Source of the DNA: Desulfohalovibrio reitneri
GTDB taxonomy: Bacteria; Desulfobacterota; Desulfovibrionia; Desulfovibrionales; Desulfovibrionaceae
Direction: 5' to 3'
Assembly: GCF_000711295.1 (NCBI RefSeq)
Contig: NZ_JOMJ01000003.1
Coordinates: 1,623,501 to 1,687,500 of the forward strand
DNA: 64,000 nucleotides
Numbering within the stretch: the first letter of the stretch is position 1; every line of letters begins with the position of its first letter. A program made the translations under genes and the position numbers. Under the pieces are notes generated by a model. That model searched no databases. It was not told the DNA's origin and worked only from the letters and a program-made list of their open reading frames with translations. Positions 5,657 to 9,970 of this stretch are shown one piece after another.

Positions 5657-7894
5657 TCAGCCGCACTTGGTGTAGCCGCAGGAGCGGCACAGGTGGCAGC
5701 CTTCCTCGAAGACCAGGGTGTCGCCGCACTCGGGACAGCCGGGCTTGCCCAGGCCGGAGTCGTTGCCCGCGTTCATGTCGTCCATGTAGCGCTGGCGCAG
5801 CACGTAGGCCACCGCGTCGGGAATGGACTTGAGCAGCCGCTTCTTGGCGAAGACGGTGTACTCGCCTCCGATGCCCTCCAGCTGCTTGACGATCTCCTCC
5901 ACGCCGATGCCGGAGCGCAGGGCCAGGGAGACCAGCCTGCCCACGGCCTCGGCCTTGGCCATAATGGAGTGGCCGGACTTGCCGATGGTGGCGAAGACTT
6001 CGAAGGGCTTGCCGTCCACCTCGTTGATGGTCAGGTACAGCTCGCCCAGTCCAGTGCGCACCTTGCGGGTGAAGCCATAGACCATCTCCGGCCGCTGCAT
6101 GACCCGGGAGGCCTCGCCCAGCTTGGGTTTCTCCACCTCTCCCGGTTCGCCGGTGCACAGCACCTGCCCGCTCAGGGAGCCGTCGCGGTAGACGGTCACG
6201 CCCTTGCAGCCCAGCTCGTAGGCCAGGGTGTAGATGTGGTGGATGTCCTCCTCGGTGGCGTCGCTTGGCAGATTCACCGTCTTGGAGACCGCGTTGTCCG
6301 TGTGCTTTTGGAAGGCGGCCTGCATTTTGAGATGCATTTCCGGGGAGATGTCGTGGGAGGTGACGAAGACCCGGCGGATGTCCTCGGGCAGGTGCTCCAT
6401 GGCGTGAATGGTGCCCTTCTTGGCCACGTCCTCCATAAGCGAGCGGGAGTGGGCCTCGGCTCGGCGCAAGGCGTCCTCGAAGTAGGGGTTCACCTCCACC
6501 AGCCGCTCGCCGTCCATGACGTTGCGGGAAAAGGCCAGGGCGAAAAGCGGCTCGATGCCCGAGGAGCAGGAGGCGATGATGGACAGCGTGCCCGTGGGCG
6601 CGATGGTGGTGGTGGTGGCGTTGCGGTAGGGGCCGAGGTTGATCTGGGCGTAGGAGGAACTGTCATAGGCCGGGAAGGGGCCGCGCTCCTGGGCCAGCTC
6701 CTTGGAGGCGGCCTTGCTCTCGGCCTGTACCGCCTCCATGACCTTGTCCGCCAGCCGCAGGGCTTCGCGGGAGTCGTAGGGCACGCCCAGGCGGAAGAGC
6801 AGGTCGGCCCAGCCCATGACGCCCAGGCCGATCTTGCGGTTGCGCCGCACCTTCTCGTCGATTTCGGACAGGGGGTAGCGGGAAGCGTCGATAACGTCGT
6901 CAAGAAAACGCACGGACAGCCGCACCACCCGCCGCAGCTCCTCCCAGTCGATGCCGTCGTCGGCCTCGGCGTCGTACAGGGCGGCCAGGTTCACCGAGCC
7001 CAGGTTGCAGGCCTCGTAGGGCAAAAGCGGCTGCTCGCCGCAGGGGTTGGTGGATTCGATCTCCCCCTGCTCCGGGGTGGGGTTGTCGCGGTTGACCCGG
7101 TCCAGAAAGACGATGCCGGGGTCGCCGGACTCCCAGGCCTTGCGCACCAGCCGGGTGAACACGTCGCGGGCGCGCAGGGTGTCCTTGACCGCGCCGGTGT
7201 GCGGGGCGATCAGCTCGTATTCCTCGTCGTTCTCCACGGCCTGCATGAAGCGCTCGGTCAGGGCCACGGAGATGTTGAAGTTGTTCAGCTCGGTGCCTTC
7301 GCTGCTCTTGCACTCGATGAACTTGAGGATGTCCGGGTGGTCCACCCGCAGGATGCCCATGTTGGCCCCGCGCCGGGTGCCGCCCTGCTTCACCTGCTCG
7401 GTGGCGGTGTTGAAAATCTTCATGAAGGAAACCGGGCCGGAGGCCACCCCGCCGGTGGAGCCCACCCGCGCGCCCTCGTGGCGCAGGCGGGAGAAGGAGA
7501 AGCCGGTGCCGCCGCCGGACTTGTGGATCATGGCGGCGTGCTTCACCGCGTCGAAGATGCCGTCCATGGAGTCTTCCACCGGCAGCACGAAACAGGCGGC
7601 CAGCTGGCCCAGGTCGGTGCCCGCGTTCATCAGCGTGGGCGAGTTGGGCAGGAAGCGCCCGGAGGTCATGAGCAGGTAGAACTCCCGGGTCAGATCCTCG
7701 ACCGTGTACGGGGAGTTTTCGTATTTGGCTTCTTCGGCGGCCACGGTCCCGGCCACCCGGAGGAACATCCCCCGGAAGTCCTCCATGGGGTTTCCCTCGG
7801 CGTCCTTGCGCAGATAGCGCTTGGCCAGGACCACCCTGGCGTTGTCCGTAAGCACGGGTTCCGGCAGATCGGCCGGAACGTCGGGTTGGGTCAT
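5657..7894 (-). CDS. nrdJ: Adenosylcobalamin-dependent (class II) ribonucleotide reductase
   Basis: The 745-residue protein reduces ribonucleotides to deoxyribonucleotides using a thiyl radical made from coenzyme B12, so it needs neither oxygen nor a glycyl radical. Visible features are PTLMNAG and the redox Cys 101 (QLAACFVLP), the loop GTGFSFSRLR, the active-site motif NPCGEQ (283-288) and ATTTTIAPTGT. The C-terminal zinc ribbon (CPEC...CHLCRSCGYTKC, last 30 residues) carries the Cys pair that re-reduces the active site. The start has TGGAG 8 nt upstream. No cobalamin riboswitch or clear NrdR box was seen upstream. The window also holds the class III enzyme. Confidence 0.95.
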   Translation of the reverse strand: MTQPDVPADLPEPVLTDNARVVLAKRYLRKDAEGNPMEDFRGMFLRVAGTVAAEEAKYENSPYTVEDLTREFYLLMTSGRFLPNSPTLMNAGTDLGQLAACFVLPVEDSMDGIFDAVKHAAMIHKSGGGTGFSFSRLRHEGARVGSTGGVASGPVSFMKIFNTATEQVKQGGTRRGANMGILRVDHPDILKFIECKSSEGTELNNFNISVALTERFMQAVENDEEYELIAPHTGAVKDTLRARDVFTRLVRKAWESGDPGIVFLDRVNRDNPTPEQGEIESTNPCGEQPLLPYEACNLGSVNLAALYDAEADDGIDWEELRRVVRLSVRFLDDVIDASRYPLSEIDEKVRRNRKIGLGVMGWADLLFRLGVPYDSREALRLADKVMEAVQAESKAASKELAQERGPFPAYDSSSYAQINLGPYRNATTTTIAPTGTLSIIASCSSGIEPLFALAFSRNVMDGERLVEVNPYFEDALRRAEAHSRSLMEDVAKKGTIHAMEHLPEDIRRVFVTSHDISPEMHLKMQAAFQKHTDNAVSKTVNLPSDATEEDIHHIYTLAYELGCKGVTVYRDGSLSGQVLCTGEPGEVEKPKLGEASRVMQRPEMVYGFTRKVRTGLGELYLTINEVDGKPFEVFATIGKSGHSIMAKAEAVGRLVSLALRSGIGVEEIVKQLEGIGGEYTVFAKKRLLKSIPDAVAYVLRQRYMDDMNAGNDSGLGKPGCPECGDTLVFEEGCHLCRSCGYTKCG

Positions 7895-8079
7895 GCAGTG
7901 TCTCCAGAAATAAATTTGGATGACGGAGTCTACATGGTTGGGCCGAGGGGCTCAAGGCGCAAGGCGGATTGAAAAGGAGGCCGAGAGCCCGGGTCTCACA
8001 CTTGCACCCTTGCGGGGCGGACCTTGCGGGCGTAGGAATGAATACTGGGATATCCCTTATCACGCCAAGGAGGTTCACC

Positions 8080-8481
8080 ATGACAAACACGAAAACCCGC
8101 CGCGAAATCCCCGCGATCATCGTCCTTGCCTCCGTACTGGCCCTCTGCTTCGTCTTTACCGGTCCCGCCGCCGCCCAGCCAGACGACGTTCCGGGCAAGG
8201 AGATGCGCAAGATGCGCGAGGAACAGAAACGCGAGCGCATGAATCGCCAAATGGAGGAGCAGCGCAAGGAGCGCCTGGATGAAATGGAGCGCCAGCGGGA
8301 GGAACGCAAGCGCGAGATGGAGCGCGCCCGGGAGGAGCGGCTGCAAGAAATCGAGGAGGACCAGGAAGGGCTTCGCCGCGACCGCGAGGGGGAACATATG
8401 GGCCTCGGGCATGAGCGCCGCATGGACAACCCTGGACGCGGCAAGGACCGGGGAAAAGCCGATTGGAAGGACAAGAAGTAG
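8080..8481 (+). CDS. Secreted E/R-rich helical protein 1
   Basis: This 133-residue protein has a signal peptide (helix to about residue 28, cleavage predicted after PAAA, residue 32) and then an almost uninterrupted run of Glu, Arg, Lys and Met, with repeats such as EEQRKER and REERLQEIEEDQE. The pattern of alternating acidic and basic residues suits a stable single alpha-helix or coiled coil in the periplasm. AGGAGG lies 6 nt before the ATG. It is the first of three consecutive genes with the same design. I do not recognise a family, though the layout recalls periplasmic helical stress or metal-binding proteins; the charged C-terminus ends in GKADWKDKK. Confidence 0.75.
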   Translation: MTNTKTRREIPAIIVLASVLALCFVFTGPAAAQPDDVPGKEMRKMREEQKRERMNRQMEEQRKERLDEMERQREERKREMERAREERLQEIEEDQEGLRRDREGEHMGLGHERRMDNPGRGKDRGKADWKDKK

Positions 8482-8615
8482 CTACTTGCCGGCCGTCCCC
8501 GTCCGCCGGACACGGCAGCGGGCCGCCATTTGGTCCCGCTCCAGCGCCTTGCCGAAAACGGCTCTCGCTCCTAGTGTTCCCCCTCGCTTGCAGCAACGAG
8601 CAAAGGAGAACCGTC

Positions 8616-9059
8616 ATGTTCCATCGCCGCCTCCCGTTCCCGTTCTCGCGGTTTGCCCTCCTGGCGGCCGTCCCGCTGCTTCTCCTGGCGTCCGCGCCCG
8701 ACCCGGCGGGGGCTGAAGATGCCCAGAGCATGAAAGAACGCATCCAGGAGCAACGGCGGGAACGGCTGGAATCCATGCGCCGCATGCGCCAAGAGGGACC
8801 CGGCGCGGCGGAGCCGGACGAACGGCTCCGCCAGCGGTTCGAGGAGGACCGCAAGGCCATCCTTCGGGACATGGAGCGGGCGCGCACCGAACGGCGGGAC
8901 GACATGGAGCGGAAACGCATGGGCATCTTCCGCCAGAAGGAGGAGGAACGCAAAGTCCGCATGCGCCAGCTTGAGGAGCGGCTGGAGGAACGGCTGGAGG
9001 AAATGCAGGCCGGGGAAAGCCGAAAGAAGCGGGACACCGGGGACGGACAAGCCGATTGA
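8616..9059 (+). CDS. Secreted E/R-rich helical protein 2
   Basis: This 147-residue protein has a signal peptide (MFHRRLPFPFSRFALLAAVP..., cleavage after AGA, residue 33), then a mature part dominated by Glu, Arg and Met with heptad-like spacing (EQRRERLESMRRMRQ, RLEERLEERLEEMQAG). It is similar in design to its two neighbours, most clearly in the RLEEM/RLESM blocks, and looks like a diverged tandem duplicate. AAAGGAG is upstream of the chosen ATG; the longer in-frame ORF start lacks one. The intergenic space before it (134 nt) is enough for its own promoter, and a terminator follows, so it may be expressed separately. The function is unknown. Confidence 0.75.
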   Translation: MFHRRLPFPFSRFALLAAVPLLLLASAPDPAGAEDAQSMKERIQEQRRERLESMRRMRQEGPGAAEPDERLRQRFEEDRKAILRDMERARTERRDDMERKRMGIFRQKEEERKVRMRQLEERLEERLEEMQAGESRKKRDTGDGQAD

Positions 9060-9093
9060 ACGGCTGACGCCCTTCCCCGCCGACCGGGAAAAC

Positions 9094-9128
9094 GCCGCCC
9101 AGGCCATTCGCCGAGGGCGGCTTTTTTT
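9094..9128 (+). terminator. Rho-independent terminator after E/R protein 2
   Basis: GCCGCCC (9094-9100) pairs with GGGCGGC (9115-9121) and is followed directly by seven T residues. It lies 35 nt after the stop codon of the second secreted helical protein. Confidence 0.85.
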
Positions 9129-9209
9129 GTACCCGCCAGCCGCACGCTCCCGCAAATCCGTTGCGGGCGGGGTGAGCCCGGCGTATTCCCTGTACATGGA
9201 GGAATCCCC

Positions 9210-9572
9210 ATGCGCTGGTCATCCCGATTCATCACCCTGGCCCTGGCCGCGCTGCTCGGCGCGTGGCTGATTCCGTCAGCCCCGCTGCATGCCGAGGCGG
9301 ACGGCCAGCGGCTTGAGGAAACGGACCGCCGGGAAGAGTGGCGGGAGGAGGAGGATCGCGACGAGATCGACCGGCTGCGCGAGCGGGAATGGGAACGCGA
9401 GCGGCTGGAGCGGCTGGAGGAAATGCGGGAACAGCGCCAGCGACGGCTGGAAGAAATGCGGCGCAAGCAGGAGCGGGAGCATAGCCAGTGGAAGGAGAAG
9501 CTGGAGCGAGAGCGGCGGGAGAACGAGCGGGAACAGATCTTCAAGGAGAAACGCCGCCAGGGCCATCCCTGA
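9210..9572 (+). CDS. Secreted E/R-rich helical protein 3
   Basis: This 120-residue protein has a signal peptide ending at LHA (residue 28), and from residue 35 on it is nearly all Glu, Arg, Lys and Gln (REREWERERLERLEEM). The composition predicts one long charged helix. It is the third and shortest member of the tandem set and shares the RLEEMR repeat unit with the others. GGAGG precedes the ATG by about 6 nt. A terminator separates it from gene 2 and another follows it, so the gene appears to be its own transcription unit. No enzyme or binding motif is visible. Confidence 0.75.
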   Translation: MRWSSRFITLALAALLGAWLIPSAPLHAEADGQRLEETDRREEWREEEDRDEIDRLREREWERERLERLEEMREQRQRRLEEMRRKQEREHSQWKEKLERERRENEREQIFKEKRRQGHP

Positions 9573-9597
9573 CGCGCTTTCAGCCCGGCCTGAAGCA

Positions 9598-9641
9598 AAC
9601 GGGCCGCCCGGCATTGTCGCCGAGGGCGGCCCGTTGTTTTC
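9598..9641. terminator. Bidirectional terminator hairpin between convergent genes
   Basis: AACGGGCCGCCC (9598-9609) pairs perfectly with GGGCGGCCCGTT (9624-9635). GTTTTC follows on the plus strand. It lies between the third secreted helical protein and the CMD-family gene, which run towards each other. Confidence 0.75.
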
Positions 9642-9655
9642 GGGATGGTTCGTGC

Positions 9656-9970
9656 CTAGTCCAGCTCCTTGTGTGCCCAGTTCAGGGCCGCGGCCACGTT
9701 GGGGAAGCCGATGGTGGAGGTCACGGCCAGCAGGGCGTGCTGGATTTCCGCCTCCTCCGCCCCGGCGGCCAGGGCGCGGCGCACGTGGGAGCGCACCGAG
9801 CCTTCGGAGCGGTCGGCCGCGGCCGCTCCGAGCTGGATGAGCAGCACGGTCTTTTCGTCCAGGGGGCCTGACTCCTGGGCGGTCTTGCCCAGGTTCTGCA
9901 CGGCGCGCATGAATTCGGGAAAACGTTCGTTGAGTTTGCGGTAATGTTCCGGTGGTCCGTCTTTACCCAT
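9656..9970 (-). CDS. Carboxymuconolactone decarboxylase (AhpD-like) family protein without redox Cys
   Basis: This 104-residue all-helical protein has the family core SHVRRALAAGAEEAEIQHALL followed by TIGFPNVAAALNWA, matching the CMD/AhpD fold. In peroxidase-type members the motif is CxxCH; here the corresponding residues read SVRSH, so both Cys are Ser and thiol peroxidase activity is unlikely. Related Ser-containing CMD proteins occur elsewhere, so this may be a normal subfamily rather than decay. AAGGAGG lies 6 nt before the ATG. It is transcribed divergently from the thioesterase gene and is monocistronic. Substrate unknown. Confidence 0.75.
   Translation of the reverse strand: MGKDGPPEHYRKLNERFPEFMRAVQNLGKTAQESGPLDEKTVLLIQLGAAAADRSEGSVRSHVRRALAAGAEEAEIQHALLAVTSTIGFPNVAAALNWAHKELD

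Follow-up and report, generated by a model that had tools for sequence, protein, structure and literature searches.

Three consecutive genes on the forward strand of the window (the whole stretch of DNA that was analysed, 64,000 nucleotides from Desulfohalovibrio reitneri) are real and unusual: they encode small proteins with export signals and mature parts made up largely of charged residues, and they lie at a breakpoint of gene order (Table 1). The anatomy of this trio is firm as regards the genes, the export signals as read by motif, the composition, the codons, the terminators and the breakpoint; the helicity of the products is predicted, and judged from sequence the trio looks lineage-specific, with no detectable relatives in the sampled genomes. 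Our best guess at a role, tentative enough that we call it only a guess, is that the products are charged helices, free in the periplasm, that serve the envelope as low-affinity protectants; we rank a role as spacers second. An earlier note on this DNA had described three consecutive genes with signal peptides, encoding exported, nearly all-charged helical proteins, and both parts of that description are supported, the first by the forward-strand reading frames and their motif-read signals and the second by the sequence together with the AlphaFold models of proteins 1 and 2.

Table 1. Coordinates of the trio, its signals and its neighbours (positions in the window)
Feature	Position	Strand	Remarks
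Left neighbour, ribonucleotide reductase gene (named nrdJ)	5657..7894	-	End of conserved block ftsX-ftsE-nrdJ
Shine-Dalgarno AAGGAGG, gene 1	8067..8073	+	6 nt upstream of ATG 8080; read from sequence
Gene 1 (P0001)	8080..8481	+	133 aa; signal peptide to about ...GPAAA, predicted charged helix about 38-116, Gly/Lys/Asp-rich tail
Shine-Dalgarno AAGGAG, gene 2	8603..8608	+	Read from sequence
Gene 2 (P0002)	8616..9059	+	147 aa; signal peptide ends at about ...PAGA; predicted helix 31-59, GPGAAEP break, predicted long amphipathic helix 69-142
Intrinsic terminator after gene 2	9094..9128	+	GC stem and seven T; z -2.07
Shine-Dalgarno GGAGG, gene 3	9198..9202	+	Read from sequence
Gene 3 (P0003)	9210..9572	+	120 aa; signal peptide to about ...PLHA; mature part 68% charged
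Intrinsic terminator after gene 3	9600..9640	+	z -3.51; 0 of 200 shuffles as good
Right neighbour, carboxymuconolactone decarboxylase (CMD)-family gene	9656..9970	-	Start of block CMD-thioesterase-dapF

Each of the three ATG codons is preceded at 6-7 nt by a Shine-Dalgarno-like sequence, and in each product motif reading shows a basic N-terminus that leads into a hydrophobic segment and then an A-x-A-type site (cleavage between AAA and Q, AGA and E, and LHA and E in proteins 1, 2 and 3, respectively); a signal peptide is also expected of Spy/CpxP/ZraP proteins. The terminators after genes 2 and 3 (the former equalled in folding by 6 of 200 shuffles) have in common the 13-mer CGCCGAGGGCGGC, which has only these two exact copies in the window. 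No terminator is visible after gene 1, where the gap to gene 2 folds as shuffles do (z -0.05). The separate ribosome sites and terminators described earlier thus stand in full for the former and for genes 2 and 3 only for the latter; together with intergenic gaps of 134-150 nt, the two terminators suggest that gene 3, at least, is transcribed apart from genes 1-2. The palindrome GGGATATCCC lies at 8047-8056, about 10 nt 5' of the ribosome site of gene 1, and may be an operator or may be due to chance.

An antisense reading frame (9598-8156, 480 aa) is also open across the region, as might be expected if the trio were merely spurious open frames in GC-rich DNA. The three ribosome sites, three export signals and two terminators, however, are all on the forward strand, where GC by codon position is gene-like across the trio and codon choice is that of the host, whereas GC by position in the antisense frame (0.57/0.76/0.68) is not gene-like, and we find this explanation scarcely credible. 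Codon choice for Glu equals that of eight neighbouring genes (GAA/GAG 0.35/0.65 in both), the choices for Arg and Gln are close to theirs, and AGA and AGG are absent from the trio; these host-like codons argue against recent import.

The mature parts (counted from residue 33 onward) contain 61.4, 56.5 and 68.2% D, E, K and R in proteins 1, 2 and 3, chiefly E and R, and carry net charges of 0, +1 and -2. For comparison we sampled the same genome at even intervals (20 stretches of 20 kb, 400 kb in all) for exported-type reading frames, of which 45 passed a filter and the 27 without a further membrane segment were used; their charged fraction is 0.24 at the median and peaks at 0.35, against 0.57-0.68 for the trio, the filter being crude and some of the 27 plainly not exported proteins. 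The dominance of Glu and Arg noted earlier is confirmed, and the RLEEM-type repeats shrink to 0, 1 and 2 copies of RLEEM in proteins 1, 2 and 3.

AlphaFold, applied to proteins 1 and 2 as monomers only and from three sequences and one, respectively (input from which helix prediction on E/R-rich sequence is almost automatic), predicts a single mature helix of 79 residues in protein 1 (three-row alignment; mean pLDDT 74.6 overall, 92-97 over residues 51-100 and 87 over residues 41-50; pTM 0.38) and helices of 29 and 74 residues in protein 2 (single sequence; pLDDT 80.7, pTM 0.44), one or two long mature helices in monomer models that need not reveal a four-helix cradle dimer such as that of the Spy group. 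Stretches of 40 or more residues in which E, K and R predominate, one of the marks of single alpha-helix (SAH) proteins, are present. Opposite charges at i+3/i+4, the spacing of salt bridges, do not significantly exceed composition-matched shuffles in any segment (p 0.06, 0.80, 0.12 and 0.20 for P1, P2a, P2b and P3, P2a being the short first helix of protein 2). Of the four segments examined, the long helix of protein 2 is amphipathic, with a hydrophobic period of 3.7 residues (p 0.006); in proteins 1 and 3 no such period reaches significance, and hydrophobic residues make up just 16% of their helical part. The proposal that these are single alpha-helices has the predicted helicity in its favour and is made less certain by the charge spacing and by the amphipathicity of protein 2.

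Whether the genes are diverged duplicates, as had been supposed, depends on the pair considered. Smith-Waterman scores of the proteins against shuffles lend weak support for 1 v 2 (p = 0.0005-0.0015) and 1 v 3 (p = 0.006-0.0135), and for 2 v 3 they are indistinguishable from shuffles (p = 0.18-0.22). Aligning against reversed sequences gives scores almost as large (100 v 119, 105 v 113 and 89 v 87), so the likeness within the trio is mostly one of composition and period. DNA-level scores lie above codon-shuffled controls for all three gene pairs (p 0.007-0.010), and shared codon strings, for example GAGCGGCTG, may account for part of this likeness. From these alignments a common origin is plausible, if unproven.

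Searches for relatives support the view that the trio is confined to its lineage. No Pfam or NCBIfam model fits it, PADLOC contains no match to it, Rfam finds nothing across the window, and the PDB has no match for protein 1 or for the three-row alignment A1; plasmids (searched with protein 2) and phages (with protein 1) gave no match either, in tests that are weak with the BLAST low-complexity filter on. Two pattern scans over 84,980 species (proteins 1 and 2) returned 42 and 64 pattern stretches, none of them confirmed. At E <= 0.001 across 59 genomes, single-protein searches tallied 4, 1 and 2 genomes for proteins 1, 2 and 3; the listings contain 3, 0 and 1 matches from outside the own genome, all of them weak (E 2.6e-4 to 7.6e-4) and seemingly reflections of composition. 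The three-row profile found the own genome only among 288 genomes of the family (E <= 1e-5), and among 395 genomes of the phylum (E <= 0.001) it tallied three, two of them weak and unrelated and the third the own genome; these samples of 59, 288 and 395 genomes overlap. None of the other relatives listed belongs to the same genus, so the word 'lineage-specific' could stand for either a genus or a single species. Around the neighbouring genes, tblastn at E <= 1e-4 with the low-complexity filter off detected the trio in none of 59 nrdJ loci or stretches, some overlapping, and 24 CMD loci contain no comparable reading frame.

We rejected several candidate matches as composition: Pfam PA26 (17.4 bits, where 29.4 is required), NCBIfam SclB, TraP and others (far under cut-off), PHROG families of unknown function (E 0.0011-0.0086) and six genome matches unrelated by their lists of reading frames. 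Five of the six are presumably a phage-like protein (L006), a Pal-like lipoprotein (L007), a TonB-like protein (L011), a DUF4168-like protein (L116) and an ATP-synthase b-like protein (L117). The sixth, in relative G005 (L008:1162-1719, reverse strand), is an exported-type reading frame whose first part is rich in E and R and whose tail consists of Gly/Asn/Ser repeats; it matches protein 1 weakly (E 7.6e-4). Two weak matches in the own genome (L003 and L004, the latter reading as a lipoprotein-like frame) were also set aside.

The trio (8060-9660) is at a synteny breakpoint, where two blocks that are apart in the sister genus meet. In that genus (g48, the nearest by nrdJ identity) the left block is conserved in G059 and G061 and the right block in G060 and G061, with genes named by likeness to those of the window, and in G059 and G061 nrdJ and the CMD gene do not share a contig. 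A tRNA search of positions 1-30000 found none; the trio adjoins no functional partner, regulator or stress operon, and its neighbours are housekeeping genes.

The trio might be far-diverged members of the Spy/CpxP/ZraP group (PF13801/PF07813) that replaced such a gene beside nrdJ. Both the trio and PF13801 members are exported and helical, and in 2 of the 26 relatives whose nrdJ loci were examined first a PF13801 (Metal_resist) gene adjoins nrdJ directly upstream, divergent as the trio is (loci L062 and L072 of G008 and G011). We nevertheless consider such descent very unlikely. The trio has no HMM match to PF13801 or PF07813, and hmmsearch --max with a local model of 27 PF13801 members (27 of 32 loci read; L044, L057, L060, L071 and L078 were omitted as under cut-off, atypical or with the wrong reading frame picked) gave it negative bit scores. 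The hhalign probability is 0.1-0.5% for the trio, whereas the 8 true members put through a leave-one-out control (the first 8 of the 27) all reached 99.3-99.8%; an LTxEQ-like motif occurs in none of the three proteins against 17 of 27 members, and the members are only 17-37% charged. The genome, moreover, retains two true PF13801 genes elsewhere (L042 and L043, close together on the same strand at C3:1214627-1216392), and 26 further nrdJ loci, two of them from the sister genus, have no PF13801 gene; on this last ground we dropped positional orthology between the trio and the nrdJ-side gene, and we ascribe the placement of that gene in G008 and G011 to coincidence or to a tendency shared at this site. 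A PF13801 gene lies 6-7 kb upstream of nrdJ in G043 and G047, and PF13801 is present in 31 of the 39 genomes of the relatives search. Kinship with Spy/CpxP, the finding that the earlier note had set against its own interpretation, is thus detected by neither HMM, motif nor profile.

As envelope protectants, the three proteins would be Sec-exported, soluble and periplasmic, each with a long charged alpha-helix and a net charge near zero, encoded by a lineage-specific cluster sited between nrdJ and the CMD-family gene, and would work as ATP-independent holdases or crowding agents of low affinity. Their dense E/R charge would permit reversible contact with unfolded or surface-exposed proteins, the amphipathic helix of protein 2 would offer hydrophobic contact, and the trio would act like Spy without Spy kinship. 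In the part of the source available (PMC8144458), clients of Spy are bound by charge first and hydrophobic contact second, and periplasmic chaperones have to function without ATP. We count in favour of protectants the export signals, a composition well outside that of the genome's own exported proteins, the continuous predicted helices of proteins 1 and 2, the amphipathicity of protein 2 and the native codon usage; against them we count the housekeeping character of the adjoining genes, the lack of a relative with a known role and a charge that is balanced, not basic like the Spy cradle. Proteins 1 and 3, with so few hydrophobic residues, may bind nothing.

The same helices could instead serve as rigid rods or spacers that bind one partner at an end and set a distance or bridge envelope layers, a role that we regard as doubtful. 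The alpha-helix rises 1.5 angstrom per residue, and the predicted helices of 79 and 74 residues would measure roughly 11-12 nm. Charged single helices are known as rigid connectors inside eukaryotic proteins (PMC5812594, in the part available), but the helices of the trio have no folded domain attached to either end, inspection by eye reveals no lipobox, the mature parts lack a further membrane segment, and the salt-bridge spacing is no better than in shuffles. Were the N-termini to remain uncleaved, the rods would be anchored in the inner membrane with the helix projecting into the periplasm. Domain II of TolA is a membrane-anchored helix of this kind, and a hydrophobic N-terminal stretch followed by a long charged helix would agree with such an arrangement; the A-x-A-type cleavage site in all three proteins and the poor score of the TolA model against protein 1 (E 0.94, 8.4 bits, cut-off 213) make it unlikely. 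A role in binding oxidants or metals, or as sacrificial targets for them, would fit the Met content (8, 7 and 2% in proteins 1, 2 and 3) and the many Asp and Glu residues, and oxidised Met residues of Spy are of importance in E. coli (PMC12503329, in the part available); the mature parts, however, have few His (2, 0 and 2) and no Cys, protein 3 is poor in Met, and no metal or redox gene is adjacent except the CMD-family neighbour, leaving this role quite unlikely and the metal sensing suggested earlier unsupported. The picture of lineage-specific, free-standing exported single alpha-helices (net-neutral E/R rods without a folded domain and of non-Spy ancestry) that form a charged periplasmic cushion, protecting or spacing the envelope, is one that we consider rather doubtful.

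Should the three products prove stable as free periplasmic helices, the range of single alpha-helices would widen from linkers inside larger proteins to entire exported proteins of bacteria, and, if the protectant role is true, charge almost by itself would be shown to suffice for an envelope protectant, with no need of the Spy fold. The trio also illustrates how low-complexity exported genes slip past homology-based annotation. Among known systems, the TolA and TonB linkers are charged rods in the periplasm, but the trio lacks their anchor-plus-domain layout (its reading frames end inside or shortly past the charged helix, with no C-terminal domain), and the TolA model is far under its cut-off. 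DUF1090 proteins such as YqjC have a charged helical character. E. coli YqjC, annotated as periplasmic, is likewise a small periplasmic protein of unknown function (PMC5491611, in the part available), unlike the trio in that the latter has no DUF1090 match in Pfam up to E 1; small periplasmic proteins of this sort are not unique, then, and the rarity claimed for such exported proteins is a gradual one. Among the papers listed by literature searches on exported or charged single helices, we recognised none on bacterial proteins of this kind. Spy/CpxP/ZraP proteins (PF13801 Metal_resist, PF07813 LTXXQ) are small, exported, helical and Met-containing as the trio is; the trio has about twice their charge, lacks the Gly/His/Met-rich tails of many members, and is balanced in charge where the Spy cradle is basic. 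Charged single alpha-helix domains (SAH/CSAH, ER/K) have in common with it a very high E/R/K content, few hydrophobic residues and a predicted continuous helix; the salt-bridge pattern of the trio is not above shuffles, and whereas these domains lie inside larger eukaryotic proteins (PMC5812594 and PMC10335832, in the parts available), the members of the trio are whole exported bacterial proteins.
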